From: Echinicola pacifica DSM 19836 | GTDB taxonomy: Bacteria > Bacteroidota > Bacteroidia > Cytophagales > Cyclobacteriaceae | Length of the DNA stretch: 64,000 bases | Assembly: GCF_000373245.1 (NCBI RefSeq) | Contig: NZ_KB890740.1 | Coordinates: 228 to 64,227 of the forward strand | Direction: 5' to 3' | Shown: one piece after another, positions 41,674 through 54,982 of the stretch | Position numbering within the stretch: the stretch's first letter is position 1 | How the letters are laid out: every line of letters starts with the position of its first letter | Notes under the pieces: generated by a model | Database searches by the model: none | The model's input: only the letters and a program-made list of their open reading frames with translations | Told to the model about the DNA's origin: nothing | Program-made: the position numbers and the translations under genes

Positions 41674-43014
41674 ATGGCGGATTTGATTGAAAAGTACAAC
41701 CAACCTCTTCCGAGGTACACGAGTTATCCTTCCGTTTCCCTATGGGAAGACAATATAAAAGAGGGAGAATGGATAAAACTAGTCCGCAAGTCCTACGATG
41801 ATTTTGGTAACGAAGAGGGATTGAATTTACACCTGCACTTTCCATACTGTGAGAGTCTCTGTACCTATTGTGGATGCACCAAGCAGAACACCAGTGACCA
41901 TGGCAAGGAGATTTCCTATATAGAAGCATTGAAGAAGGAATGGGATGCTTACTTAAAGCACCTTCCAGAGAAGCCAAAACTGGCAAGCATCCATCTAGGT
42001 GGAGGCAGCCCAACGTTTTTCTCAGCGGAGCATCTCAAAGAGGTGATTTCTTATATACAAGCCACCAGTACTCCACTCAATGACGCTCAATATAGCCTCA
42101 AAGGCCATCCTAATACGACCAGTTATGAGCATTTATTAGCGCTTAGCGAATTAGGATTTAAGCGCATTAGCTTTGGCATTCAGGATTTTGATCCTAGTGT
42201 ACAGCAGGCGATTCACCGCATACAGCCATTCAAAACAGTTCGGGAAGCTTCCTATTTGGCAAGGCTTACGGGGTTTACGAGTATTAATTTCGACCTGATC
42301 TATGGACTGCCACATCAGACCCCTGAGAGCATCATCCATACCATGGAGCAAGTGGGAACCCTCCGACCAGAGCGAATTGCCTTTTACAGTTACGCCCATA
42401 TGCCCTCTTCATTTCCAGCACAAAAAAGGTATGAAAACCACCTTCCTCCTGGGGAGATGAAGCAATTGCTCTATAAGGTAGGCCGTAAAACCCTCCAAAG
42501 GCTAGGCTATCAGGAAATAGGAATGGATCACTTTGCCCTTCCTGTGGATGAACTTCTTAAGGCCAAACAGCAAGGAACCCTGCATCGAAATTTTATGGGA
42601 TCTACCACCCACAGCGCTCGCATGCTTTTAGGCTTGGGAAATAACGCAATAAGTGATATTCACTACGCTTATGCTCAGAATCCAAAAATGGTGGATGACT
42701 ATAAAAAGACGGTGATGGAAGGAAAATTCTCCCCTGGCAAAACTCATCTCCTGCATAATGAAGATCATGAAATCAGAAATATAATTCTAAAAATGATCTG
42801 TCTGGAAAAAGTAAAACTCAATGAAGGCCCTCTTTCCATGGACCTGATCAGGAGACTTCAGGATATGCAAAAAGACGGCATTATCACAATTAAGGATGGC
42901 TGGGTCGAATTAACGGCCATCGGAAAGCCTTACCTGAGAAATGTATGCGCCGCATTTGATAAGCGACTGCAGGAAGGGAAGACCAAAACCTATGTATTTA
43001 GCAGAGCTATCTAA
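41674..43014 (+). CDS. hemN: Oxygen-independent coproporphyrinogen III dehydrogenase
   Basis: 446 residues, radical SAM enzyme. The cluster motif is C59-E-S-L-C63-T-Y-C66-G-C68 (CX3CX2CXC), the form of true HemN; HemW lacks the fourth Cys. YNQPLPRYTSYPS at the N-terminus, LHLGGGSPTFFS, RISFGIQDFDPSVQQAIHRIQ and DLIYGLPHQT follow the HemN pattern. It decarboxylates coproporphyrinogen III to protoporphyrinogen IX without oxygen in haem synthesis. Upstream are two palindromic TGA-N6-TCA sites, so control by oxygen or redox state through a CRP/FNR-family regulator is likely. Monocistronic. Confidence 0.95.
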   Translation: MADLIEKYNQPLPRYTSYPSVSLWEDNIKEGEWIKLVRKSYDDFGNEEGLNLHLHFPYCESLCTYCGCTKQNTSDHGKEISYIEALKKEWDAYLKHLPEKPKLASIHLGGGSPTFFSAEHLKEVISYIQATSTPLNDAQYSLKGHPNTTSYEHLLALSELGFKRISFGIQDFDPSVQQAIHRIQPFKTVREASYLARLTGFTSINFDLIYGLPHQTPESIIHTMEQVGTLRPERIAFYSYAHMPSSFPAQKRYENHLPPGEMKQLLYKVGRKTLQRLGYQEIGMDHFALPVDELLKAKQQGTLHRNFMGSTTHSARMLLGLGNNAISDIHYAYAQNPKMVDDYKKTVMEGKFSPGKTHLLHNEDHEIRNIILKMICLEKVKLNEGPLSMDLIRRLQDMQKDGIITIKDGWVELTAIGKPYLRNVCAAFDKRLQEGKTKTYVFSRAI

Positions 43015-43258
43015 GCAAAGGAATGGGGAAGAAAAAAATCTTCTCTCCTATAATTCTTCTTAAATAAAATCCACCGAAAATGGCCAAGGCAAAAAATACA
43101 TTCCTGGCCTTACCCCCCGGTACAAAAATTATAATTAGCTGATATTAGGCTTTTCTTTTCATTAAATGATCCTCTAGACAAAATGTCTTTGATCGGCAAT
43201 ATTCTGTCTAGAACTAAAGTCAGTAAAGAGTTTAAAAGTTGGTGTATTTTTATGTGCA

Positions 43259-43297
43259 GGGATCAGATTACCATTGGTATTTTGATCCCTTTTTTTA
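43259..43297 (+). terminator. Rho-independent terminator
   Basis: GGGATCA ... TGATCCC with the small palindrome ACCATTGGT in the loop and eight T behind. It lies 245 bp after hemN, a long distance, so the transcript carries a long 3' region or a separate small RNA ends here. Confidence 0.75.
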
Positions 43298-43589
43298 TCC
43301 TCCCTTTACAGACGAAGTGATTCCTCCACATCTAGAGCGCAATTATCGCCTCCTTCTTGTAAAGTGGAAATCTAAAAGAAAATTTAAGTCGAAGCGTTAA
43401 AGCTACTTGAGGTTCAGGTACCTATTATCTGAATATTAAAATTCATTTGTTTTTCTCCTCATAAACAAGCCTTAAAGAGGGCATATTTACCATTGAAATG
43501 GCGATTCATAGTATAATTTATAAGCTCACATCAAGCTATTTTGTATTAGTTAATTTTAGAAAATACCTTTTTCATTTAAATTTTTAGGC

Positions 43590-43597
43590 TAATTTTG
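43590..43597 (+). promoter_or_regulatory. Candidate -7 box abutting a start codon (TAATTTTG)
   Basis: Exact match to TAnnTTTG, ending 1 bp before the ATG at 43599. If used, transcription would start near 43602 and the first full ATG would be at 43605, giving a leaderless mRNA. Confidence 0.35.
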
Positions 43598-43598
43598 C

Positions 43599-43985
43599 AT
43601 GCAAATGCTCAAATCCATCATTTACATATGGCTATCTATGATCATTGTGCTCAACAGCATGGTGTTTTCGGTCATTAAGATGGATTATGCCATGAACAAG
43701 CAGTATATCATTGATAATTTCTGCGTCAATCAAGACAAGCCAGAAATGCATTGTGATGGGAAGTGTTTCTTAATGGAGAAGCTCAACGAGGCAAAACAGC
43801 AGCAAGAAGATCAACCTGGAAGTATCGATTTCAGTCGTGACTTTGGACTTTTTATCCTTCAGGAAAACACCATAGGATTTATATCCAACCATTTGATTAC
43901 CTATATCCATCAGTCCCCTTACGCTCCATCTATCCTTAATAAGGCCAGCATGGACATTTTTCACCCACCTCGTTTTTATTCTTAA
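43599..43985 (+). CDS. Small CX9CX3C membrane protein (island gene 1)
   Basis: 128 residues (126 from the Met at 43605). One N-terminal transmembrane helix (about 6-26) is followed by a conserved core MDYAMNKQYIIDNFCVNQDK with Cys at 42, 52 and 56 (CX9CX3C, in DKPEMHCDGKCFL), then a low-complexity stretch of Q and E and a C-terminus with His (HQSPYAPS, FHPPRFYS). It shares the CX9CX3C spacing and flanking residues with the protein at 48388. Related small proteins occur in Bacteroidota near metal-uptake and haem genes. A metal-relay or thiol role is inferred; function is unknown. Confidence 0.6.
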   Translation: MQMLKSIIYIWLSMIIVLNSMVFSVIKMDYAMNKQYIIDNFCVNQDKPEMHCDGKCFLMEKLNEAKQQQEDQPGSIDFSRDFGLFILQENTIGFISNHLITYIHQSPYAPSILNKASMDIFHPPRFYS

Positions 43986-44344
43986 TCCTTTTTTCTTTTC
44001 CTAAAATAGTCCTTCTAGTCCCATTGGGATTGGTTTGCGGCAGTTTATGGAATTCATTATCGATAGTATAGGGATTTTCTATTCTTCTGATCACTATCTC
44101 CACTATTCATTTCAGGCATAGCCTCATGAGTCCCGTTTCGTCTTTTCGGAAGCAGTTTGGGTACTTATATAGTCTATAGCGCTTCAATGAAAGGAGGTCT
44201 AGCGTCACTTGCTATGATCCGCATGCTTCATAAGTATTTTACAGGATCAATGGATTGCTAGTTCGCAAATCTCCAAAACCCACTATAAGGGGCGTTTTGG
44301 AGGTGATTAGAGTTGGTTTTCCCCTATATATTATACCTATAATT
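43986..44344. other. Leader region of the MbnH/MbnP-like operon
   Basis: About 359 bp before the first di-heme gene. A short hairpin TCCCATTGGGA lies near 44018, and GATCC ... GGATC occurs around 44216-44249. Probably holds the operon promoter; no exact -7 box found. Confidence 0.35.
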
Positions 44345-45469
44345 ATGCATTTACGAATCGTATCCCTGCTGATGCCGGTGGTGATCGGGGGAATGGTCTG
44401 CGCTTGCCAGGAAGATCTGGAGCAGACCGCCACTGATAATCCAATCCTCAAGCTGGAGCATCCTGATTATTTCACTAACGACATTGCCATGCCCGCTGAC
44501 AATCCACTGACAGAGAAAGGCTTTGCATTGGGCAGGATGTTATTTTATGAAAACAAACTTTCTCTGGACCAGAGTCTCTCCTGTGCTTCCTGTCACCAGC
44601 AGTCTAAAGCCTTCAGCGATGGGCTGCAATTCAGCCGAGGCGTTGATGGTCAGCTGGGAGATCGCAATGCCATGTCTTTAGCCAATCTGCACTGGACGAG
44701 CAGGTTTTTTTGGGACGGCAGAGCCGCAAGCCTGGAAGATCAAGCCCTGGAGCCTATTTCTGATCCTAGGGAAATGAATCTCCCCATCGAGGAAGCGGTG
44801 GCCAGGCTGCAGGCAGATGAGCACTATCCCGATTTATTTCAGGAAGCATTTGGCGAGGAGCTCATCACGGCGGAGCTGCTAAGCAAGGCCCTTAGTCAGT
44901 TTATGCGCAGCTTGGTATCGGGCGATTCCAAATTTGATCAGTGGATAAAAGAAGAGGTAGAGTTGACGGCTGAAGAGCAATTGGGCATGGAGCTTTTCTA
45001 CACCCACCCTGAGCCCTCCTTACAGATAAGAGGGGGCAATTGTGGGGACTGTCACCTTGGTTTCCTGACTTCTGGCAACCGAGACGATCTCCTGGGATTT
45101 CATAATAACGGCTTAGACAGCGATGAAAATCTGGCAGAAGGATTGGCCGCAGTCACTGGCCGCAGCTCCGACAAGGGGAAGTTCAAAGCCCCTACCCTCC
45201 GAAATATCGCCCTAACCGCTCCTTATATGCATGATGGTCGCTTCAATAGCCTGGAGGAAGTATTGGACCATTACGATCAGCATGTGCAAGAGAATAGTCA
45301 CCTTGATCTACTGGTTTTGGAAGCTAGCAATGAAATTATCGCTGGCGATCCGGAAGTAAAATTGCATCTCAGCGCTTCTGAAAAGAAGGCCATTATTGCC
45401 TTCCTACATACTCTTACCGATGAAAAATTCATCAGTAATCCCAAATTTTCAAATCCCTTTAATCAATAA
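44345..45469 (+). CDS. Di-heme MauG/cytochrome c peroxidase-like enzyme (MbnH-like) 1
   Basis: 374 residues. The start (ATG 44345) opens a lipoprotein signal (IGGMVCAC, probable lipid Cys at 21). Two c-type haem sites: C80-x-x-C83-H84 (CASCHQQ) and C233-x-x-C236-H237 (CGDCHLG). The conserved C-terminal TLRNIALTAPYMHDGR segment carries the TAPYxHxG of MauG-type enzymes. This family includes cytochrome c peroxidase, MauG and MbnH, which oxidises a tryptophan of MbnP. An MbnP-like gene follows 5 bp downstream, which favours an MbnH-like role. True peroxidase activity cannot be excluded. Confidence 0.9.
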   Translation: MHLRIVSLLMPVVIGGMVCACQEDLEQTATDNPILKLEHPDYFTNDIAMPADNPLTEKGFALGRMLFYENKLSLDQSLSCASCHQQSKAFSDGLQFSRGVDGQLGDRNAMSLANLHWTSRFFWDGRAASLEDQALEPISDPREMNLPIEEAVARLQADEHYPDLFQEAFGEELITAELLSKALSQFMRSLVSGDSKFDQWIKEEVELTAEEQLGMELFYTHPEPSLQIRGGNCGDCHLGFLTSGNRDDLLGFHNNGLDSDENLAEGLAAVTGRSSDKGKFKAPTLRNIALTAPYMHDGRFNSLEEVLDHYDQHVQENSHLDLLVLEASNEIIAGDPEVKLHLSASEKKAIIAFLHTLTDEKFISNPKFSNPFNQ

Positions 45470-45474
45470 ATAAG

Positions 45475-46218
45475 ATGAAAAAAATAGTTTTAATTGCGAC
45501 ACTCTTAGGCTCACTATGGGCTTGCGACTCCAATGTGGATCCACTTCCTACCAGTGCTTCGGTGACTTTTAACTTCACCCACCTAATCAATGGAGAGGAA
45601 TTTGACCTTGAAAATTCAATGATGGAGCTGCCCACAGGCGAGGTCTTTACTCCCAATAAGTTCAAATATTATATTTCCAATATCACCTTCACCAATACCT
45701 CTAACCAAGAAACCTATACCCTGGAAGATGGCTATTACCTAATTGACCAGGCGGGACAGAAGAGTTTTTCCTTTGTCATCCCGACAGCTGCCTACGACCA
45801 ACTAAGTTTTTATGTGGGGGTGGATCAGGAACGTAACCTGTCCATTGACCAGGTGGGTGACCTCGACCCGAGTAATGATATGGTGTGGAACTGGAATACC
45901 GGGTATAAGTTTTTGGTGCTGGAAGGAGAATGGCAATACGGAGAATCAGTCCGCGAGGGCCTTATCATTCATATAGGCAATAACGATCCTGCAAGCACGA
46001 TTAATTTCAGGGAAATCACCTTTGACCTTAATCAGGCAGCTATCGATTTGGAGAGGAATAGTGAGGTGAATTTAGATTTTGAGGCCGAGCTCAGTGCGCT
46101 CTTTGATGCGCCAAACGAGATAGTGATTCACGAGCTGGAAAACACCAGCATCATGGGTGGCGAATGGGCTATCAAAGTGGCTGAAAACTATCAAGAAGGC
46201 ATGTTTACCTTAAAATAA
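45475..46218 (+). CDS. MbnP-like copper-binding domain lipoprotein 1
   Basis: 247 residues with a lipobox (SLWAC, Cys 17). The MbnP-like domain (PF20243) reads SVTFNFTHLINGEEFDLEN, KFKYYISNITF, YYLID and LSFYVGVD, with the signature MVWNWNTGYKFLVLEGEW (W138 and W140) and LIIHIGNND (H166). In methanotroph MbnP a Trp is turned into kynurenine by the partner di-heme enzyme MbnH and helps bind copper. The gene is flanked on both sides by MbnH-like genes: 5 bp after the first and overlapping the second by 1 bp (TAATG). A periplasmic or surface copper-binding function is inferred. Confidence 0.85.
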   Translation: MKKIVLIATLLGSLWACDSNVDPLPTSASVTFNFTHLINGEEFDLENSMMELPTGEVFTPNKFKYYISNITFTNTSNQETYTLEDGYYLIDQAGQKSFSFVIPTAAYDQLSFYVGVDQERNLSIDQVGDLDPSNDMVWNWNTGYKFLVLEGEWQYGESVREGLIIHIGNNDPASTINFREITFDLNQAAIDLERNSEVNLDFEAELSALFDAPNEIVIHELENTSIMGGEWAIKVAENYQEGMFTLK

Positions 46219-47279
46219 TGCGAATTAGAAAGGGATATACCGCCGCCTATCTTTTGATCCTAGTGCTTGGGCTAAGTTCTTGTATGGAGGGTCTTCCGGA
46301 AGTGGAAGATCCTGCACCCAGGTATTTCATCCCTACATTGGCGGCCAGCTTACAGCAGTCCACCTTCCCCCAGCCAGAGTCCAATCTCCTTTCGGAGGAG
46401 GGCGTATTGCTGGGCAAAACCTTATTCTATGATCCCTTAATTTCTGCCAATGGCCAGGTAAGCTGCGGCACCTGCCATTCGTTGGAGCTGGCTTTTGGAG
46501 ATGGGATATCTCTATCTGCAGAGGGGGTATCCGGGAAGCCTCTGCACCGCCATGCCCCGGTACTCTTCAACCTCGCCTGGAATGAAGGCTTATTTTGGGA
46601 TGGTGGCTCGCGGAACCTGGAATCCCTGATCTTTGGGCCACTGACACATCCCGATGAGATGGGCGCGAATCTCAATGAGACCATAGCCTATCTAAATAGC
46701 AGTGGCAACTACCCGGAGATGTTTTATAGGGCCTTTGGAACGGATTCTATCACGAGTGCTGCCATAGGACGATCTCTGGCGCAATTTGTCCGCTCCATTC
46801 TATCCCAAAACAGTAAATATGACCAATGGAAATCAGGAGAAAATGCCTTGAACAGCCTGGAGCTGCAAGGCTATCAGCTCTATCAGGAGCACTGTAAAAG
46901 CTGCCACACAGAGGGACTATTTACCGATCTTGGCTATCATAATAATGGCCTGGACGCTTCATTTCCAGACCCTATGGAGCTGGAAGGCTTATACCTAGGA
47001 CGTTTCAGAATCAGTTTTGCAGACTCCGACCTCGGGGCTTTCAAGACCCCATCCCTGAGAAATATCGCGTTCTCTGCCCCTTATATGCATGATGGGAGGT
47101 TCGAAACCCTGGATGAAGTGCTGGACCATTATCGATCCGGAATTCAACATTCTCACAGCCTATCTCCCGCGCTCAGGGCTGGCATTACTATCACCGATGC
47201 CGAAAAGGAGGCCTTAAAGGCTTTCCTTCATAGCTTAAGTGATTATACATTTATTACTAACCAAGCCTATTTACCTTAG
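46218..47279 (+). CDS. Di-heme MauG/cytochrome c peroxidase-like enzyme (MbnH-like) 2
   Basis: 353 residues with a lipobox (GLSSC, Cys 22). Haem sites are C83-x-x-C86-H87 (CGTCHSL) and C226-x-x-C229-H230 (CKSCHTE). Conserved segments LRNIAFSAPYMHDGRF and DEVLDHYRSGIQHS match the first di-heme protein of this operon, from which it is diverged. The start codon overlaps the MbnP-like stop by one base. Two such enzymes with two MbnP-like proteins in one operon suggest dedicated pairs, perhaps with different tryptophan targets; this is inference. Confidence 0.9.
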   Translation: MRIRKGYTAAYLLILVLGLSSCMEGLPEVEDPAPRYFIPTLAASLQQSTFPQPESNLLSEEGVLLGKTLFYDPLISANGQVSCGTCHSLELAFGDGISLSAEGVSGKPLHRHAPVLFNLAWNEGLFWDGGSRNLESLIFGPLTHPDEMGANLNETIAYLNSSGNYPEMFYRAFGTDSITSAAIGRSLAQFVRSILSQNSKYDQWKSGENALNSLELQGYQLYQEHCKSCHTEGLFTDLGYHNNGLDASFPDPMELEGLYLGRFRISFADSDLGAFKTPSLRNIAFSAPYMHDGRFETLDEVLDHYRSGIQHSHSLSPALRAGITITDAEKEALKAFLHSLSDYTFITNQAYLP

Positions 47280-47288
47280 GAAAATATC

Positions 47289-48383
47289 ATGACCAAAAAA
47301 CCACTCGTAATACTTCTCCTGATCTGTCTCAGCAGTGTCCTCACTCCTGAAGCACAAGCCTGTGATAGCTGCAATTTCTTTGAATATAGCTTATTACAAA
47401 ACAGAAGTTATTTCGGAATCTTCTACCGTACCCGTCATTTTGGAGGATATGACCGCTATGGCTATTCGGGGACCTTGCCCAATACTGCCGCCAGCCTGAA
47501 CAGTGGATCTACCAACAGCCTAGCAAATCAGTACAGTCCCAATGCCCGCACCTCCGCGCCTGCGATCGTGGACCAGATAAACCCTGATCATCAGCTGATG
47601 CATGAGCCAGAGGGCACAGGTTTATATGTCAATAAAACGGACCAGGATTGGGAAACCTACCAAACGGTGGAAGTCCGAGGGAATTTCACCCTTAAGAACA
47701 AGTGGAACTTCACCTTCCTGCTTCCATATGAGTCCAATAAGGTGTATTATGAAAAGATGCTAGACCTGCCAAACCCCTCCCGTGACACCACGATGACCGT
47801 GCATGGATGGGGAGACCTGACCCTGGCGGCAGACTTTATTCACTATATCTATTCCTCCAAAGCCCGGCATACCTTCCGCCCAGGCCTTGCCGTGATCGCC
47901 CCTACTGGCCAGGCCCGAAAAGCCTCCGCTGTTGGAGGCCTTTATGATCCCATCATCCAGCCGGGAACGGACGCTTGGAGCTATGTATTACGCTTCAACT
48001 ATCAATTATTCATCAACAAAACAGGCTTAAATGCAGGAGCCAATTTCAAGCAATCTACCGAAGGCGCCCAAAGTTATCAGTTTGGAAATAGTGTCAACGC
48101 CTCTTTGGTGGGCTTTCACCAAGTGTCAATCGCGGAAAAGTGGCTGGTAATCCCCAATATTGGTGGGTACTATGAAAGCTCCAAAGAGGATACCTGGAAC
48201 GATGAAAACCAAAGCCTTACCGGTGGCAATGTGCTGTTTGGGCAAGCAGGAATGGACCTTAATCATCAGGACTGGACACTCAGCTTCCTGTATCAATCTC
48301 CTTTGACCCAAAACCTAAACGGCAACCAAATCCATCATCAAGACCGGATGAGCATAGGCTTTATCAAGGCATTTAAATTATAA
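47289..48383 (+). CDS. Outer-membrane protein with N-terminal CxxC (operon member)
   Basis: 364 residues with a signal peptide (about 1-24, cleavage at AQA-CDSC). The mature protein begins C-D-S-C-N, which could bind metal or form a disulfide. The rest is rich in beta strands and aromatic residues, with strand-like segments YQTVEVRGNFTLKNKWNF, WGDLTLAADFIHY and ending GFIKAFKL, typical of an outer-membrane transporter-like barrel. No named family was recognised. It follows MbnH-like gene 2 by 9 bp and precedes the CX9CX3C gene by 4 bp, so it is part of the metal operon and may form the outer-membrane export or import channel. Confidence 0.75.
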   Translation: MTKKPLVILLLICLSSVLTPEAQACDSCNFFEYSLLQNRSYFGIFYRTRHFGGYDRYGYSGTLPNTAASLNSGSTNSLANQYSPNARTSAPAIVDQINPDHQLMHEPEGTGLYVNKTDQDWETYQTVEVRGNFTLKNKWNFTFLLPYESNKVYYEKMLDLPNPSRDTTMTVHGWGDLTLAADFIHYIYSSKARHTFRPGLAVIAPTGQARKASAVGGLYDPIIQPGTDAWSYVLRFNYQLFINKTGLNAGANFKQSTEGAQSYQFGNSVNASLVGFHQVSIAEKWLVIPNIGGYYESSKEDTWNDENQSLTGGNVLFGQAGMDLNHQDWTLSFLYQSPLTQNLNGNQIHHQDRMSIGFIKAFKL

Positions 48384-48387
48384 TCAT

Positions 48388-48756
48388 ATGCGGCTATCAG
48401 TACTGATACTCCTATCAGTAGTGCTGTTAAAAATCCTTGGAAGCGCCATTCTCTACTTGGACTTCAAGCTACATCAAGAGCAACTTGCGAGGGAAAAGTG
48501 TGTGCAAAGAAATGAGCCCATCACCATCTGTCGCGCCAATTGTGTTCTTGTAAGCAAACTGGAGATCAGCAATGAGTCGGAGGAGAAGCAGCCAAGCATG
48601 AAGTCCAGTAAGGAGCTGGAGCAGTTTATAATTAGCGAAATGCCGCATTTCGACTTTTTAGGAATTGCCACCTCCGCTCCTATCCATGTATATTTCCCTT
48701 GGATCAATGAGGACTTTAGCAGCAATATCGAAAAACCTCCCGAGTATATATGTTGA
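48388..48756 (+). CDS. Small CX9CX3C membrane protein (island gene 2)
   Basis: 122 residues. One N-terminal transmembrane helix (about 2-25) precedes LDFKLHQEQLAREKCVQRNE and ITICRANCVLVSKL: the same CX9CX3C pattern (C38, C48, C52) as in the protein at 43599, with aligned upstream residues (hydrophobic-D-[YF]-K/A ... [QK]). The C-terminus ends in Cys. It lies 4 bp after the outer-membrane protein. Possible copper or thiol handling at the inner membrane is inferred; the family is not named here. Confidence 0.65.
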   Translation: MRLSVLILLSVVLLKILGSAILYLDFKLHQEQLAREKCVQRNEPITICRANCVLVSKLEISNESEEKQPSMKSSKELEQFIISEMPHFDFLGIATSAPIHVYFPWINEDFSSNIEKPPEYIC

Positions 48757-48893
48757 CGCCCACAATGATAAGTGGAGTTCATGCCAGAAGCAAAGATTTG
48801 TCTTTGTTAACCTCCATTCCATAGGAATGAGATGAGATTTCAGAAAGAAATCGAATTATTTTAGTCAATAGATTTTTACTCAATTATCAAAAA

Positions 48894-49691
48894 ATGAAAG
48901 TTAACTTTAAGTCAATAATAGCATTAGGAGCTATCCTAGCAGGTTTTTCATGTACTGAGAATATGGATGAGGCCATGATGGCCCCCGGCAATAGTACTGT
49001 TTCTCTCCATCTCTCCCACACTTTTGGGGAGGATGATTTCGTTTTGGATCAGACCTATACCAGTTCCAAGGGACAGGCCATTCAGTTTGACGAATTGCGA
49101 TACTGGATTTCGAATGTGGAGCTGCATACGATGGAAGGGGAAGTGGTCAGCATTCCCGATTCCTATTATCTAATCCAGCATATGAAGGAGCAGTTGGTAC
49201 AGGACAAATTTGTGCTTCCAGATTCGGTAAGGGAGCATGTGATACTGAAAGACGTGCCAACTGGCACTTATTCAAAAATCAACTTCTCCATAGGTATCGA
49301 TCCTGTTTATAATAATGACCTCACACTGATCGCAGGTGAGCTCAATGCTTTACAAAATATGGCGAGCGCCTCTTGGATGTGGTTTACGAGCTATATCTTC
49401 ACCAAGGTACATGGAACCGTGGGAACTGGAGAGGAAGCGATGGCCTTTTCATTCGAAACTGGCAGCAACGATTGCTATAAAACCGTCAGCCTGGAATTTC
49501 CTGAGCCTATCCTTCTGAGCGACACCGAGGATAATTTCATAAATATCAGCAATGATGTGGAGAAGCTATTGGGAGGAATTGCTTTTGATGAGACGATACT
49601 TTCTGGCACTACTTATACCATTGGGGCGAGTAAACCAGAGCAGATGATGAAGCTATCAGGCAATTTTGAGCAATCGTTGCAAGTGAAATAA
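48894..49691 (+). CDS. MbnP-like copper-binding domain lipoprotein 2
   Basis: 265 residues with a lipobox (LAGFSC, Cys 20). The MbnP-like domain is recognisable: STVSLHLSHTFGEDDFVLD, FDELRYWISNVEL, SYYLIQ, INFSIGIDP and the signature SWMWFTSYIFTKVHG (W161, W163), then FSFETGSNDCYKTVSL. It is strongly diverged from MbnP-like 1, including a Met-rich N-terminus (MDEAMMAP) that might bind copper. It lies 137 bp after the preceding gene, at the end of the operon, just before a terminator. Loss of the His seen in MbnP-1 (LIIHIG becomes FSFETG) suggests different chemistry. Confidence 0.8.
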   Translation: MKVNFKSIIALGAILAGFSCTENMDEAMMAPGNSTVSLHLSHTFGEDDFVLDQTYTSSKGQAIQFDELRYWISNVELHTMEGEVVSIPDSYYLIQHMKEQLVQDKFVLPDSVREHVILKDVPTGTYSKINFSIGIDPVYNNDLTLIAGELNALQNMASASWMWFTSYIFTKVHGTVGTGEEAMAFSFETGSNDCYKTVSLEFPEPILLSDTEDNFINISNDVEKLLGGIAFDETILSGTTYTIGASKPEQMMKLSGNFEQSLQVK

Positions 49692-49723
49692 TTTACTTTT
49701 ATCCTATAAGCTTAAAAACAACA

Positions 49724-49762
49724 AACCACCCTCAGCACTTCGGTTGAGGGTGGTTTTTTTTT
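49724..49762. terminator. Bidirectional Rho-independent terminator
   Basis: AACCACCCTCA ... TGAGGGTGGTT with a GCACTTCGGT loop; a long T-run follows on the plus strand and a T-rich stretch on the minus strand. It separates the MbnP operon from the convergent porin gene. Confidence 0.9.
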
Positions 49763-49785
49763 GTTTTAGCAATAATATAATAACC

Positions 49786-51117
49786 TCAAATTGCTACTTG
49801 AAACTGCATAACGGCCATGCCCTTCCTGCTGGTACTTTCCAGGGCTCCGCTGTTGGAATAGTCAAAGATAGGTCTGCTTTGGTAGCCCATGGTGAGCTTT
49901 ACACGATTTCCATCGATCAGCCAGTTTAGGCCACCATCATACATCAACATCGCATCCTCCAGCCGGTCAAAGTCTGAATATTGGGTGGAGAAATAAGCTT
50001 GTAAGGTACCCGACTTGCCCAATACCTCACGACCAAATAAGTAGCCCAGCTGAGCAAAAACCGTATTCCCGGTTCCGATGGTAGGGAAAGCATTGCCTGG
50101 GCCATTGAAGGTTCCGTTTTCATTGACCCCCGTGGCAGGATTCATAGCTCCAATATTTCTGATATAGTTTTTGCCATAATCACTGTAGGAATAGGCTGCA
50201 TAAGCGGTGATCGCATTGCCTTTGCTCGCGCTAATAGGCTGGTCCATAAAGAAATCCACGGAAAGAATAGTAAGGTTACTCCGCAGCGTATCTGTCTGAT
50301 TATCTGCATAATGCCACATCGCATCCTTTTGACTTAGGAATCCAGCGCCGATATTCATCACCCGTTTCTGGCCCAGGTAAGAGCCTGCCTGATAGGGAGT
50401 GGTATTGGATTCCTTATCCCAAAACATATATTTGAAATATCCATGTACCTGGGCATAGCCTGGTTCTGCCGCAAAGAGAGAATTATCTCCCAGCTGGTTG
50501 GACTGCGCGGTGGATAGCTCAGTGGACATAGGCTTAGAAACTGCTAATCTATAATCGAGCTGACCCAGTTGCCCCTTTGCATATACGCTGAATTTCCGCA
50601 CAAACTGGTCATTGATATCATTGGTGGTCTGCTGATACAGTGGGGCATCCAGCCCCAATATGGATCCTACAGATGGGGAGGAATATCTGGAAACGCCATT
50701 CCATCCGGTGAGGCCCGCTCCTAGGGATATTTTCTCCTTAACCACGGCATATTCGGCTAGGGCATCATGAAAAAAGAGGCCTTGCTTCCTCGGTGAGCGA
50801 TAGGAAAGGTTATTTTGTCCAAACTGGGTATAGAAAAACACCCGATCAGTAAGCTGGCCATACAGCACAATCCGTGTCCGCCGAAGCCCCACATCCAGCA
50901 GATGCTCATCGGCAGTTCCGAATACCTCCGAGCCAGGATTAGCAGCGGTATATCTCAGCCAAATCTGGTTTAGGAAGTTCGCCTTGATGTACTGAGAGCC
51001 ATCTTCGTTTAACTTGAATTTAAGTTCCTTTGGGAATTTGCTTGATTCGGTTTCCTGTGCATCCACATTGGCAAAAAACAGCCCTGACATGGCTGCACAG
51101 ATGATAAACTTTTTCAT
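49786..51117 (-). CDS. OprP/OprO-like outer-membrane porin
   Basis: 443 residues with a signal peptide (MKKFIICAAMSGLFFANVDA). The mature protein is a predicted 16- to 18-strand barrel with DVGLRRTRIVLYGQLTDRVF, FFYTQFGQNN, IDGNRVKLTMGYQSRPIFDY and the end AVMQFQVAI. It resembles phosphate-selective porins of the OprO/OprP group. It is convergent to the MbnP operon and divergent from the TonB receptor, so it may be independent of the metal genes. The transported substrate cannot be read from the sequence. Confidence 0.85.
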   Translation of the reverse strand: MKKFIICAAMSGLFFANVDAQETESSKFPKELKFKLNEDGSQYIKANFLNQIWLRYTAANPGSEVFGTADEHLLDVGLRRTRIVLYGQLTDRVFFYTQFGQNNLSYRSPRKQGLFFHDALAEYAVVKEKISLGAGLTGWNGVSRYSSPSVGSILGLDAPLYQQTTNDINDQFVRKFSVYAKGQLGQLDYRLAVSKPMSTELSTAQSNQLGDNSLFAAEPGYAQVHGYFKYMFWDKESNTTPYQAGSYLGQKRVMNIGAGFLSQKDAMWHYADNQTDTLRSNLTILSVDFFMDQPISASKGNAITAYAAYSYSDYGKNYIRNIGAMNPATGVNENGTFNGPGNAFPTIGTGNTVFAQLGYLFGREVLGKSGTLQAYFSTQYSDFDRLEDAMLMYDGGLNWLIDGNRVKLTMGYQSRPIFDYSNSGALESTSRKGMAVMQFQVAI

Positions 51118-51513
51118 AATACTTGTAAAAATGAAATATATTAAGTTGAATTTAACTCGTTTTTAGGGGTGCTTTCAGGGCTTTGCCTACGCAGATTAAG
51201 TAGGACAATAGATAGCATGGTTTCTATTCAGGTAAATTTTTAGGGGTATTCTAAAAAAACATCCCTGAAATTCTATCATACGGCCATTTTTTGGTCTCAG
51301 TTGGATGTTTTACCATTATTTTCATTTTTTTTTGACGCTTCTATTTGTCCACAAATCACCCTCTTCATGACCACGAGTCCCTTTCCACTGACTATGAGCA
51401 GCATCGGATCATCAAAATATATTATTTAGTCTTACCTAATATTTTATTTACACTACCTTAATATTTATTTTTGTATATATCGAAAAATATATTTAGAACA
51501 CCTTATAACTCAT
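51118..51513. other. Divergent region porin / TonB receptor
   Basis: About 396 bp. Contains the receptor's -7 box (51466-51473) and the porin promoter, for which no exact match was found. No gene was seen. Confidence 0.4.
51466..51473 (+). promoter_or_regulatory. Candidate -7 box (TATTTTTG) of the TonB receptor gene
   Basis: Exact match to TAnnTTTG with a predicted 5' leader of about 33 nt; the -33 element at the expected distance is TTTA rather than TTTG. Confidence 0.45.
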
Positions 51514-53880
51514 ATGAATAGATTTTTGACTGTATTGATACTGGTATTGATTACTAATACCATGGCATATTCACAGGATGTAGGTAAAATAATAGGGAAA
51601 ATAACCATTAGCGAATCCGATGGTGTATATGCCTCCGTCCAGCTTTTGCGCAGCAGTAGAGGGGTCATGACTGAGGCAGATGGTAGTTTTGTTCTGGACG
51701 ATATTAGTCCTGGAGAATATGAGATAGAGGTAAAATACATGGGGTATCAATCCAAGAAAGCAAGGGTGCAGGTATTGGCAGGAAAGACCGCTGAAGTAAA
51801 CCTGCATCTGCTAGAGGATAAGTTAGGGTTAAATGAAGTGGTCATCAGCGCCACGAGGTATGAGCTAGACAGAAAAGAATCTCCGGTGGTGGTAGGCGTA
51901 CTCAACTCCAAAATATTCAATGCGACCCAATCCATGGCGCTTTCGGAGGGACTAAACTACCAGCCAGGCGTACGTGTGGAAACCAATTGCCAAAACTGTG
52001 GCTTTACACAGGTGCGGCTGAATGGCCTTGAAGGTGCCTATTCGCAGATTTTGATCAATAGCCGGGCCGTATTCAGCGCCTTAAACAGCGTCTATGGCTT
52101 GGACCAAATCCCCGCGAATATAGTAGAAAGAGTGGAAGTGGTGCGCGGTGGAGGCTCAGCCTTATACGGCTCCAATGCTATTGGGGGAACCATCAACATC
52201 ATCACCAAGGAACCCGTAGAAAATACCTGGCAGATCGGTTCCAACTTTGCCTTAATCGACGGAAAGACAGTAGACAATACCCTAAACTTCAACGGCTCCA
52301 TGACCAGCGAGGACCTGAGCTCAGGCGTCACCTTCCATGGTATGTATCGGCAGAGAGGCAGCTATGATGCCAATGGGGACGGTTTTACCGAAATCACCCA
52401 GTTGGAAAATAATACCTTCGGAATGAAAACCTTCCTGAAGCCCGGCAAGAGAAATAAAATAAGCCTTGATTTCTCGGCCATAAAAGAATACCGGCGAGGC
52501 GGCAACCAACTGGATCTCCCCGCGCATCTTACTGATATCACGGAGCAACTCACGCATAACACCCTCATTGGCGGGATTACTTATGAGGCCTTTAGCGGCG
52601 ATCATAGAAATAATTTCTCCACCTATATATCAGGTCAGAAAACCACCAGAGATAGCTATTATGGGGGCTTAGGAGGCGGAAGAACCAAGGCCGACAGCCT
52701 GCTGGCCGCCAATGCCTATGGAAAAACAAATGACTTTTCCTTAGTGATGGGCAGCCAATTCTCCCGGAATTTCACCAATGAAGACATGCTCATCATGGGA
52801 TTAGAATACCAGATCAGTCAGGTCGAAGACCATATTCCCGGCTACCTAAGGACGATCGACCAGTCTGTAAATACCCTGGGTTTTTATGGGCAATATGAAT
52901 GGCGACCCAATGATAAGCTTACTGCCCTCGCCGGCGGAAGATATGATCTGACGCAGGTGGATGGATATTATCAGCTTGGACAGCTCAGCAGGGACTCCGA
53001 TATCAGCACCGCAGTACTTAGCCCACGGATCAACCTTCTGTACGACCTTAGAGAAAATCTGCAATTCAGGCTCGGTTATGCCCGGGGTTTTCGGGCTCCA
53101 CAAGCTTTTAATGAAGACCTACACATCAGTTCGGTAGGCGGAGAACCTACCTTTGTGATCCTTTCTGATGAGCTCCAAAATGAGCTTTCTGATGCTTATA
53201 CCAGCTCCCTAAATTATAGCCATACCATAGGTGATCTGCAATTCAGCCTCCTCGCTGAGGGATTTTATACCTTGCTGCATAGACCCTTCACGACTGTTAG
53301 CACAGGTAGGCGCCTGGAAAATGGCTCCATTGTAGAGGAGGTCATTAATGGTACAGGGGCAAAGGTCCGTGGCTTAAATCTGGAACTCAACCTGTCCCCT
53401 TCCTCCCCGATAAATATCCAATCGGGGATAACCTTCCAAAAGTCGACCTATAACAGCCCACAAGTGCTTTTTGAGACCGATCCGGTGCTAGAGAGTGAAC
53501 CCGTAGTGAGCAGCACCACCCTCCTACGATCTCCCAATAGCTATGGATATATCAGTGGGTCTTTTGCCTTATCGGAGCACTGGGGAATAGACCTCACTGG
53601 CGCCTATACCGGCCCCATGCTCCTGCCCCATATCATCTCCACCACCGGTTATATGGACCTGGTCCAGTCCCCTGATTTCTTTGATGCCAATCTAAAGCTT
53701 TCTTACCATTTTGACCTGATAAAGGGCTATCATCTCGAACTTGCGGGAGGAGTCCAAAACTTCCTCAACAGCTATCAAAGTGACTTCGACCGTGGTGCCT
53801 TAAGAGATTCCAATTATATCTATGGGCCTGGCCGGCCAAGAACATTTTTCTTCGGACTGAAAATTGGTGATTTCCACTAG
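51514..53880 (+). CDS. TonB-dependent receptor with CQNC plug motif
   Basis: 788 residues. A signal peptide (1-20) precedes a CarboxypepD_reg-like domain (23-100), the plug (about 105-235) and the barrel. The plug has V-E-T-N-C159-Q-N-C162-G-F, RLNGLEG, VERVEVVRGGGSALYGSNAI and INIITKEP. The two cysteines sit at the plug surface, where substrate could contact them. Receptors of this type often take up metal chelates such as haem, siderophores, cobalamin or copper complexes. Its place between the MbnP/MbnH-like operon and a thioredoxin gene favours copper or iron; this is inference. Followed 35 bp later by a thioredoxin gene. Confidence 0.92.
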   Translation: MNRFLTVLILVLITNTMAYSQDVGKIIGKITISESDGVYASVQLLRSSRGVMTEADGSFVLDDISPGEYEIEVKYMGYQSKKARVQVLAGKTAEVNLHLLEDKLGLNEVVISATRYELDRKESPVVVGVLNSKIFNATQSMALSEGLNYQPGVRVETNCQNCGFTQVRLNGLEGAYSQILINSRAVFSALNSVYGLDQIPANIVERVEVVRGGGSALYGSNAIGGTINIITKEPVENTWQIGSNFALIDGKTVDNTLNFNGSMTSEDLSSGVTFHGMYRQRGSYDANGDGFTEITQLENNTFGMKTFLKPGKRNKISLDFSAIKEYRRGGNQLDLPAHLTDITEQLTHNTLIGGITYEAFSGDHRNNFSTYISGQKTTRDSYYGGLGGGRTKADSLLAANAYGKTNDFSLVMGSQFSRNFTNEDMLIMGLEYQISQVEDHIPGYLRTIDQSVNTLGFYGQYEWRPNDKLTALAGGRYDLTQVDGYYQLGQLSRDSDISTAVLSPRINLLYDLRENLQFRLGYARGFRAPQAFNEDLHISSVGGEPTFVILSDELQNELSDAYTSSLNYSHTIGDLQFSLLAEGFYTLLHRPFTTVSTGRRLENGSIVEEVINGTGAKVRGLNLELNLSPSSPINIQSGITFQKSTYNSPQVLFETDPVLESEPVVSSTTLLRSPNSYGYISGSFALSEHWGIDLTGAYTGPMLLPHIISTTGYMDLVQSPDFFDANLKLSYHFDLIKGYHLELAGGVQNFLNSYQSDFDRGALRDSNYIYGPGRPRTFFFGLKIGDFH

Positions 53881-53915
53881 TTGGGAATCCCTTTAAATAG
53901 ATCAAACAAGGACTC

Positions 53916-54404
53916 ATGAAAAATAAACTCGTCTTACTTCTTCTCAGCAGCAGCCTCTTATCCACCTTCGCCCATGCTCAGGCATCCATTCGGTGGATGG
54001 ATTTTGAGCAATTGGAAGATTCTTTGGCGATTGCTCCCAAAGCCATCTTTATCGATTTCTATACCGACTGGTGCAGCTACTGCAAAAAGATGGACAAGGA
54101 GGTTTTTACGAAACCGGAAGTGGTCCAATGGATTAATAATGAGGTATATGCTGTAAGGATGGATGCTGAATCCCGAGATAACATTTACTTTGACGGGCGA
54201 TGGTGGAAGAATCGCCAAGCCACTGCCAAACGCGAGGGGTTTCACGAATTGGCCTTGCTGCTGGGCAGCCGGCAAGGTGAATTTGTCCCTCCGGTTTTTC
54301 TTCTGCTCGATGAACAGTTCACCGTTATCGACCGCAAATTCCAGTACCTCTCCAGTGAAAAGCTCATGGCTTGGTTGCGAAAAGAGCTAGTGAATAATCC
54401 CTGA
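53916..54404 (+). CDS. Secreted thioredoxin-like protein
   Basis: 162 residues with a signal peptide (about 1-21, ending AHAQA). The thioredoxin fold carries W-C-S-Y-C-K as active site (FYTDWCSYCKK) and the cis-Pro in FVPPVFLL. The extended insertion (residues 85-115) is typical of the thioredoxin_7 group (DUF255-like). It lies 35 bp after the TonB receptor, so both are likely cotranscribed; it may keep the receptor or CxxC proteins of the island reduced. This link is inference. Confidence 0.88.
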   Translation: MKNKLVLLLLSSSLLSTFAHAQASIRWMDFEQLEDSLAIAPKAIFIDFYTDWCSYCKKMDKEVFTKPEVVQWINNEVYAVRMDAESRDNIYFDGRWWKNRQATAKREGFHELALLLGSRQGEFVPPVFLLLDEQFTVIDRKFQYLSSEKLMAWLRKELVNNP

Positions 54405-54982
54405 CACCAATAATCACCGCCCATTACCTTCTCCATTTTATCAGTCAGAGTTAACCAATTAGCCCCCATTTCTTCTACTCAGGACGATGCAAAAGAAATG
54501 GATAAACAGCAGCCTACCCCCCTCGTCAACCACCAGCACAAATTATAGATATAAGCATCCCACGATTTGGTAGGAAAGCAAAGTAGGTAAAAGCTCGCGG
54601 GATATCTAAGTGATTGTGGCTAGAAAAAACCCTTATTTAAACCCTCCAATCTTCAGACCTGCTAAGATTATAAAGAAAACCACTGCCTATTATAATTTTA
54701 TTCTTGGTAAAGCCTAAACCTGTGGAAATAGCCACCAAACCACCTCGGGAAACTAGTATTATTAACTTTTTGGACGGAGATACAAAAACAAGGGTTCAAA
54801 TAGCATTAAAATAATAACTAATTTTAAACAAACATTTAACACTTATTATAAACCACCCTCCTATCTAATTTTGTAATTTAGACAAAATTTAAAAAATCAA
54901 TTTATTTATCAATAATATTTTTTAGATAGAAAAATATTAATTATTTTTCAAGCTTCGAAACTCTACTAAAAAACAAACAATT
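54405..54982. other. Intergenic region before the PEGA-like lipoprotein
   Basis: About 578 bp, AT-rich toward the 3' end, with a candidate promoter at 54866-54873. The 54480-54640 part is more GC-rich; no gene, repeat or known RNA was recognised. Confidence 0.4.
54866..54873 (+). promoter_or_regulatory. Candidate -7 box (TAATTTTG) of the lipoprotein gene
   Basis: Exact TAnnTTTG match; predicted leader of about 103 nt to the ATG at 54983. No TTTG at the -33 position. Confidence 0.35.

Follow-up and report, generated by a model that had tools for sequence, protein, structure and literature searches.

What switches on an operon of MbnP- and MbnH-type genes in a member of the Bacteroidota, and is copper acquisition its purpose? 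The question is raised by a gene cluster of Echinicola pacifica DSM 19836, found in a 64,000-nt stretch of contig NZ_KB890740.1 that we call the window and along which all positions are counted; the host genome measures 5.44 Mb. Including a promoter element and a closing hairpin, the operon spans 43590-49756 and encodes, in this order on the + strand, a small protein (smA), a di-heme protein (MbnH1, or HA), a lipoprotein (MbnP1, or PA), a second di-heme protein (MbnH2, or HB), a predicted outer-membrane barrel protein (OMP), a second small protein (smB) and a second lipoprotein (MbnP2, or PB). An earlier, sequence-only reading took smA as its starting coordinate and described neither smA nor smB. 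Judging from sequence, we consider it fairly likely that this is a copper-acquisition MbnP/MbnH operon under the control of a leader protein, sm, which acts at the 5' end and a second time ahead of MbnP2. To our knowledge, copper uptake and its switching have been little studied in Bacteroidota.

The operon is a real MbnP/MbnH operon. Both lipoproteins match the Pfam family MbnP (PF20243), with 149.3 bits for MbnP1 and 127.8 bits for MbnP2 against a cut-off of 27, and both di-heme proteins match CCP_MauG, with 200.6 bits for MbnH1 and 169.8 bits for MbnH2 against 25.6. Because these scores lie far above the curated cut-offs, and PF20243 matches only these two genes genome-wide, the operon is more than a chance assembly. 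NCBIfam models are stricter: MbnP1 (52.0 bits) and MbnP2 (36.2 bits) fall short of the 140-bit cut-off of TIGR04052, which is nevertheless the sole family that MbnP1 matches, and TIGR04039 (MbnH), the best-scoring model for both di-heme proteins, gives 277.9 and 209.7 bits, below its cut-off of 362.85. The order sm-MbnH1-MbnP-MbnH2-barrel recurs in all 10 MbnP-bearing genomes among 11 examined in the genus (host included), and in Echinicola, Cyclobacterium and Algoriphagus it accounts for 14 of 49 named loci, to which a Cytophagales metagenome-assembled genome (L151) adds another. The sequence-only reading thus had the named genes on the right strand and in the right place, with two MauG/MbnH-type proteins, each bearing two CxxCH motifs, around one of two MbnP-like lipoproteins.

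The case for a leader protein begins with the form of sm. We collected 105 members (100 distinct; 66 non-redundant at <50% identity; 30 in the alignment) from open reading frames (ORFs) called in scripted counts by a simple greedy rule, the first start codon being taken; contigs L135, L136, L137, L150, L165, L167 and L173 repeat earlier genomes. smA and smB, 24% identical to each other, belong to this one family and are its only profile matches in the host genome. Three Cys and two Pro are invariant among the 30 aligned members, all 105 combine a CxxxC with a C-terminal PP, and 95 carry a third Cys nine residues before the CxxxC. An N-terminal helix (a 19-residue window of hydropathy >=1.6, ahead of the Cys motif) is present in 61 of the 66 non-redundant members. 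Across the same 66, the last Cys and the PP are separated by 66 +/- 1.8 residues (62-71), the identity within this spacer is near random (0.258, against 0.207 for shuffles), and the PP sits 1-8 residues from the C-terminus in 64, as FHPP in 25, FRPP in 12 and RAPP in none. In smA of ten Cyclobacteriaceae, pN/pS reaches 0.45 in the spacer, compared with 0.13 in the Cys motif and 0.14 in IFHPP, with synonymous sites near saturation. A fixed length and a free sequence between the metal motif and the terminal PP give this segment the look of a nascent-chain ruler.

The family is not one that databases recognize. No Pfam or NCBIfam model covers sm, a few single members giving weak, scattered matches to unrelated families, and the search of solved structures returned nothing meaningful (best E=3.1). 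Nor is sm detectably a member of DUF2946, the family of known copper-responsive leaders: none of 30 members matched PF11162 at E<=1 (a threshold at which HMMER filters already drop most matches above 0.1), and a profile comparison with 7 DUF2946-like proteins gave 0.6%. Among the titles listed in searches of open papers, none describes sm.

A second line of evidence is the position of sm relative to transcription signals. We scored TAnnTTTG, which we take to be the consensus of the Bacteroidota -7 promoter element, when it fell within 40 nt before an in-frame start. It precedes 51 of the 105 sm genes, or 47 of 100 once the repeated contigs are removed, compared with 15 of 345 other genes (MbnP 6/130, MbnH 7/129, barrel-protein 1/52, receptor 1/34; p ~1e-24). 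At seven of the other nine loci from the genus, an exact copy is found 7 nt upstream of the ATG, as it is for smA, whose start is likely ATG 43605. Since the element lies so close, the smA transcript may be all but leaderless.

The third is the gap that follows. In 79 of 79 cases sm and the gene behind it share a strand, the median distance between them being 142 bp, as against 9 bp among 103 MbnP/MbnH/barrel-protein gaps. The sequence-only reading had given gaps of 0-9 bp for most genes, and this is true from MbnH1 to smB, where the distances are 5, -1, 9 and 4 bp; it does not extend to the two long gaps behind the sm genes, 359 bp from smA to MbnH1 (whose start is probably ATG 44345 rather than TTG 44255) and 137 bp from smB to MbnP2. 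The smA-MbnH1 gap is long in all nine other MbnP-bearing genus loci as well (234-663 bp). TAnnTTTG is not found in the window's 359-bp gap, which folds with a z of -2.2. A known RNA element or riboswitch was rejected as a candidate, there being no Rfam match up to E=1 within 43000-54500.

The conserved Cys triad and N-terminal helix would also suit an ordinary small copper-binding membrane protein that acts in trans, passing Cu(I) to MbnP or taking it over from a receptor, with the PP as a docking or cleavage motif; the copper proteins in the company of sm, and the placement of smB 4 bp behind OMP, agree with such a role. We regard it as unlikely, if a serious contender: a near-random spacer of fixed length, a terminal PP, a promoter near the start and a long gap are features of leader peptides, and sm heads unrelated receptors besides MbnP.

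This last point emerges from a sample of 296 Bacteroidota genomes (counts of genomes include the host; those for sm and OprC-like genes are lower bounds, 150 sm being listed). At least 118 of the 296 carry sm, and 77 carry MbnP. Within 3 kb upstream and on the same strand, sm precedes at least 40 of 99 MbnP genes and at least 30 of at least 66 OprC-like genes; an MbnP or OprC-like neighbour explains 73 of the 150 sm among the matches listed. At loci without MbnP, receptors follow sm, and PepSY_TM, BNR and YtkA genes are among the neighbours. OprC was the best solved match for both sm-linked receptors searched. Its copper site consists of four residues in the motifs CxxxM and HxM (PMC8610252; articles given by PMC number are cited here from extracts). 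Of 29 large ORFs linked to sm, 11 contain CxxxM(D/N), eight of them matching a strict pattern and three more besides, with HxM further on in all 10 examined, and the strict pattern is found in none of 139 other large ORFs, that is, all those without sm, receptors and others alike. These 10 receptors share both motifs with the OprC/NosA receptor, and none lies within the Echinicola operon; among the matches listed, 0 of 296 genomes exceed the cut-off of TIGR01778, below which Bacteroidota receptors score. On annotated plasmids we found sm-hypothetical-SCO-PepSY in Spirosoma and sm followed by a TonB-dependent transporter (TBDT) and PepSY in two Hymenobacter; in all three records found, sm is annotated as hypothetical and has CxxxC and PP, ending LRPP or DHPP.

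If copper acquisition were the business of a plain scavenging operon, with simple duplications and an ordinary promoter, sm would be incidental. All MbnP/MbnH features agree with this, as do the 63 of 130 MbnP genes that lack sm. We give it little credence, however: sm is tied to copper-type receptors in the absence of any MbnP, the promoter element precedes sm, and MbnH1 and MbnH2 are not recent duplicates, as described below.

We propose the following mechanism. Transcription would begin only a few nucleotides ahead of the start codon of sm. Under copper scarcity, a ribosome translating sm would stall at the C-terminal PP of the nascent chain (IFHPP in smA); the stall would allow expression of the operon, either by blocking termination in the long intergenic stretch that follows or by opening the next start site. 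Once copper is bound by the Cys triad of this membrane-anchored chain, at a fixed distance of some 66 residues from the stall site, the ribosome would be freed and the operon shut off. Outside the cytoplasm, MbnH1, MbnH2 or both would oxidise the first Trp of the WxW in MbnP1 to kynurenine, whereupon MbnP1 would hold Cu(I), and the barrel protein, which has a CxxC at its N-terminus, may move copper through or along the outer membrane. The gene families and their order, the conserved residues and fixed spacing, the promoter element, the place of the gaps and the copper-type neighbours can be read from the sequence itself; stalling, copper sensing, the sign of the regulation, the transcription start, transport and the formation of kynurenine are inferred.

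Several observations weigh against this account. On the side of the protein, the Cys spacing differs from x9 in 10 of 105 sm; the C-terminus carries FHPP/FRPP or a less regular sequence, such as IEKPP in smB, rather than the tested RAPP/RGPP; PP alone can stall weakly, and EF-P may relieve the stalling; and a spacer of fixed length could equally reflect a small fold. As for transcription, an exact promoter element is missing from roughly one sm gene in two, smB has none and is internal to the operon, and only 45 of 79 sm plainly open a unit, as judged by a change of strand or at least 100 bp of upstream gap. The gaps yielded neither a conserved RNA structure nor a conserved sequence, the 359-bp gap showing no sequence conservation across 10 genus members. 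Nor is the company of sm uniform: 77 of the 150 sm among the matches listed have no MbnP or OprC-like gene nearby, many MbnP modules do without sm, and of the 29 sm-linked large ORFs, 11 belong to a different receptor class (NEQH...IRQP) and 7 show neither motif. The variation in Cys spacing and the many sm genes with no exact element have slightly lowered our confidence in this account as a whole.

The receptors of the NEQH...IRQP class stand behind sm in L085, L089, L091, L093, L094, L098, L102, L106, L086, L088 and L097, and in many cases a PepSY_TM or BNR-repeat gene comes next; their substrate may be copper. Other possible copper proteins adjoin sm elsewhere, namely Met-rich outer-membrane proteins at L050:9954-10865(+) and L073:5937-6995(+) and an outer-membrane protein with a weak Phenol_MetA_deg match at L104:7423-8445(+).

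The closest known model is CruR (DUF2946), which heads the cruR-crtA-crpH operon of Bordetella: a small exported protein with a CXXC, a conserved 45-residue spacer and a C-terminal RAPP (PMC9426467, PMC12914433, PMC13038864). CruR is proposed to stall without copper and so shield the operon from Rho, copper shutting the operon off (PMC9426467), and later in vitro work demonstrated the stall at RAPP (PMC12992588). Relatives of CruR head TBDT, PepSY, OprC-type and MbnPH-like genes (PMC9426467). Like CruR, sm is small, with an N-terminal helix, a Cys motif and a C-terminal PP kept apart by a spacer of constant length, copper-type genes behind it and a long gap. It differs in that CxxxC and a third Cys take the place of CXXC, and in having a spacer of 66 instead of 45 residues and FHPP/FRPP instead of RAPP, and no homology is detected. 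We therefore suggest that sm works like CruR, with whose layout and clients it agrees, and do not file it as CruR, given its other motifs, other spacer and lack of detectable homology.

DUF2946-like genes do exist in the phylum: 14 of 118 genomes have a match at E<=0.01, one of them over the cut-off, and there is none in the host genome. In seven of 10 such loci a short ORF terminates in R(A/G)PP, away from the sm genes of the same genomes. These His-rich ORFs (L125:1399-1791(+), L126:1495-1866(-), L127:1369-1773(+), and in L128, L130, L132 and L134), behind which a lipoprotein-like ORF is seen in L126 and L127, may be true CruR relatives.

CutF of Rhodobacter, another DUF2946 protein, offers the opposite sign. 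It is a nascent exported sensor acting in cis, with CxxxC and a PP-rich end, and here copper switches the genes on, a stem-loop covering the next start site (PMC9973294). Were sm CutF-like, copper would prolong stalling and induce the genes, and the operon would serve copper defence or use rather than scavenging. The CxxxC and the PP near the C-terminus are indeed shared, and CutF-like proteins are stated to include many Bacteroidota in a list that may contain sm (PMC9973294). We nevertheless consider this sign quite improbable: the downstream genes are of uptake type (MbnP, OprC-like, PepSY), as for CruR, and no stem-loop at the MbnP2 start is common to five genus members. A CutF-like stem-loop there was therefore dropped. 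The 137-bp gap with the MbnP2 start folds stably in the window (z of -2.7 and -3.2 in two computations), but the four relatives compared do not share the structure (z between -2.0 and +0.4), and because they lack it we make no claim for it.

What, then, would the operon do with copper? The two MbnP proteins differ in this respect. An alignment of 61 MbnP ORFs, the window's two included, was built from loci of a 59-genome kinship sample, 40 genomes of which have PF20243 (host included). Conservation reaches 60 of 61 for W138 of MbnP1, 54 for W140, 52 for H166 and 46 for M136, and MbnP1 has all four. A search with a single sequence found no solved MbnP; a profile of 32 MbnP found one solved protein, 7l6g, with E=0.003, whose GMAWNW and HVG align to the WxW/Met and His places and which we take to be the solved MbnP. 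In the 2021 MbnP study of Manesis et al., the first Trp of WxW is reportedly converted to kynurenine, and His and Met are said to hold Cu(I). By alignment, H166 and M136 of MbnP1 would be those ligands, and W138 is likely the modified residue, predicted to become kynurenine. The two-tryptophan signatures that the sequence-only reading had pointed to, W138/W140 and W161/W163, are both present. Its proposal that they are the modified residues is supported for the first Trp of MbnP1. MbnP2 retains the WxW, but Glu188 and Ala159 replace the conserved His and Met, so that a mere duplicated substrate is not supported and MbnP2 looks rather like a sibling with changed copper ligands. The Glu variant occurs in 7 of the 61 MbnP, five of them MbnP2 of Echinicola and two in genome G054, and MbnP2 is present in 5 of the 10 MbnP-bearing genus genomes. 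Elsewhere, L076:6731-9435(-) has three tandem MbnP behind a single MbnH and a single sm, two of the three with the MbnP2-type Glu.

The two MbnH proteins likewise prove to be different things. Both have a Tyr as MauG-type axial ligand and a Trp between their two hemes, roles assigned by analogy with MauG, and both genes adjoin MbnP1. We compared 128 MbnH proteins (121 distinct), 47 encoded upstream of MbnP, 73 downstream and 8 unplaced, after dropping ORFs of more than 480 residues. One clade of the tree, with a support of 0.991, contains 46 of the 47 upstream and none of the 73 downstream proteins, and the equivalent of MauG Gln103 is Gln in 45 of 47 upstream and 20 of 73 downstream proteins; it is Leu in MbnH2, and MbnH1 has the axial Tyr and a Gln/Pro/Glu pocket. 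MbnH1 and MbnH2 are thus, on this comparison of sequences, old, position-specific subfamilies. A recent duplication is ruled out by the tree, which places upstream and downstream copies in separate old clades, and the 'duplicated enzyme' of the earlier reading has to be given up. Near 130 MbnP genes (repeated contigs included), both enzymes are found in 33 cases, the downstream one only in 45, the upstream one only in 16 and neither in 36, contig ends not being excluded; as many MbnP genes have one enzyme only nearby, a single MbnH may suffice elsewhere.

The superfamily also includes cytochrome c peroxidases, so that the di-heme proteins might be imagined as oxidative-stress enzymes and MbnP as a mere companion lipoprotein. 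The evidence makes this very improbable. The axial Tyr, as in MauG and MbnH, is retained in all 47 upstream proteins and in 71 of the 73 encoded downstream, at a place where the aligned peroxidase 1iqc has Met; and the best solved match of MbnH1 is the di-heme enzyme 6e1c, presumably the solved MbnH, with E=7e-59, compared with E=4e-39 for the best peroxidase. A role in copper acquisition, as the earlier reading had thought likely, is probable.

OMP has no Pfam or NCBIfam family match. Its C25 and C28 are invariant in 20 sequences, and a homologue follows MbnP in 49 of the 67 cases where sm is present, as opposed to 2 of 63 where it is absent. A scan for hairpins returned 8 terminator-like sites where 7.9 are expected, the one that closes the operon having the longest stem. 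Coordinates of all features are given in Table 1.

Table 1. Features of the sm-MbnH-MbnP operon of E. pacifica DSM 19836, in window positions
Feature	Position	Strand	Description
TAATTTTG	43590..43597	+	match to the TAnnTTTG -7 promoter element, 7 nt upstream of ATG 43605
smA	43605..43985	+	transmembrane helix, C-x9-C-x3-C and C-terminal IFHPP; proposed copper-sensing leader (arrest) peptide
smA-MbnH1 gap, 359 bp	43986..44344	+	proposed site of conditional transcription termination
HA / MbnH1	44345..45469	+	di-heme MauG/MbnH-type protein, upstream-clade type; lipoprotein signal judged by eye
PA / MbnP1	45475..46218	+	MbnP-type lipoprotein; kynurenine predicted at W138
WxW codons, MbnP1 W138-N-W140	45886..45894	+	
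HB / MbnH2	46218..47279	+	di-heme MauG/MbnH-type protein, downstream-clade type; Leu at MauG Gln103 equivalent
OMP	47289..48383	+	outer-membrane beta-barrel predicted by eye; CDSC right behind signal peptide
smB	48388..48756	+	second sm member, CVQRNEPITICRANC ... IEKPP, precedes MbnP2
smB-MbnP2 gap, 137 bp	48757..48893	+	
PB / MbnP2	48894..49691	+	MbnP-type lipoprotein; W161/W163, Glu188, Ala159
WxW codons, MbnP2 W161-M-W163	49374..49382	+	
Intrinsic-terminator-like hairpin	49723..49756	+	14-pair stem, then T run; closes operon

Genes on either side of the operon were also surveyed. Upstream, 41674-43014 (+) matches Pfam Radical_SAM, is HemN-like by reading and precedes smA in eight of the nine other genus loci; it is possibly tied to heme supply for the di-heme enzymes. 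Downstream lie a divergent porin-like gene with a weak ExtI match (49786-51117, -), a TonB-dependent receptor with the plug motif CxNCGFTQVR (51514-53880, +) and a thioredoxin-like gene (53916-54404, +). The receptor, to which the sequence-only reading had looked for a phenotype, holds its position with the porin-like gene in nine of nine further loci of the genus; next to the operon in Cyclobacterium or Algoriphagus it was not observed, and for this reason we left it out of the system.

An MbnP/MbnH operon as such is nothing new. The earlier reading called such systems poorly described outside methanotrophs; the pair is, however, conserved far beyond methanobactin producers (PMC3621798), and MbnPH-like genes are listed in operons headed by CruR (PMC9426467). 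The Echinicola operon resembles this known pair in both families, the adjacency of the genes, the WxW, the aligned His, both hemes and the Tyr ligand. It departs from it in that two old MbnH types surround one MbnP, scores stay below the NCBIfam cut-offs, a barrel protein and sm replace the methanobactin genes, and a second MbnP has changed ligands. There is also a likeness to MopE/SACCP and CorA/CorB of methanotrophs, which are copper-repressed and have a Trp-derived kynurenine and an adjoining, co-transcribed di-heme enzyme (PMC3912023), although MbnP is described as having no marked sequence similarity to either MopE or CorA (PMC3621798); the extracts of PMC3912023 mention no leader gene in those systems, whereas sm leads here. 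What is new is the proposed cis-acting copper sensor, the two fixed MbnH types and the MbnP with changed ligands.

The wider meaning of the locus depends on sm. A 2025 survey reports RAPP/RGPP leaders before copper-related genes in various lineages, with Bacillota and Bacteroidota as exceptions, and leaders of the same type before TonB-type receptor genes throughout Gram-negative bacteria (PMC12992588). sm is a candidate to fill the Bacteroidota gap, and its two motifs are open to testing by point changes. We hold the chances to be evenly balanced that Bacteroidota possess their own, independently evolved nascent-peptide copper sensors, made up of a Cys triad, a 66-residue ruler and an FHPP/FRPP stall site, and that these replace DUF2946/CruR as the main copper-acquisition switch in much of the phylum, over MbnP/MbnH, OprC-type and oxidase-maturation genes. 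The Echinicola operon would then have two switches in series, the second guarding an MbnP2 whose WxW may be oxidised to serve another purpose than the known His/Met copper site. The two MbnH clades, for their part, make a division of labour in Trp-to-kynurenine chemistry directly testable. If the proposal is true, metal sensing by a stalled nascent chain would have arisen more than once, and sm would provide a handle for finding so far unrecognized copper-uptake genes across the phylum.

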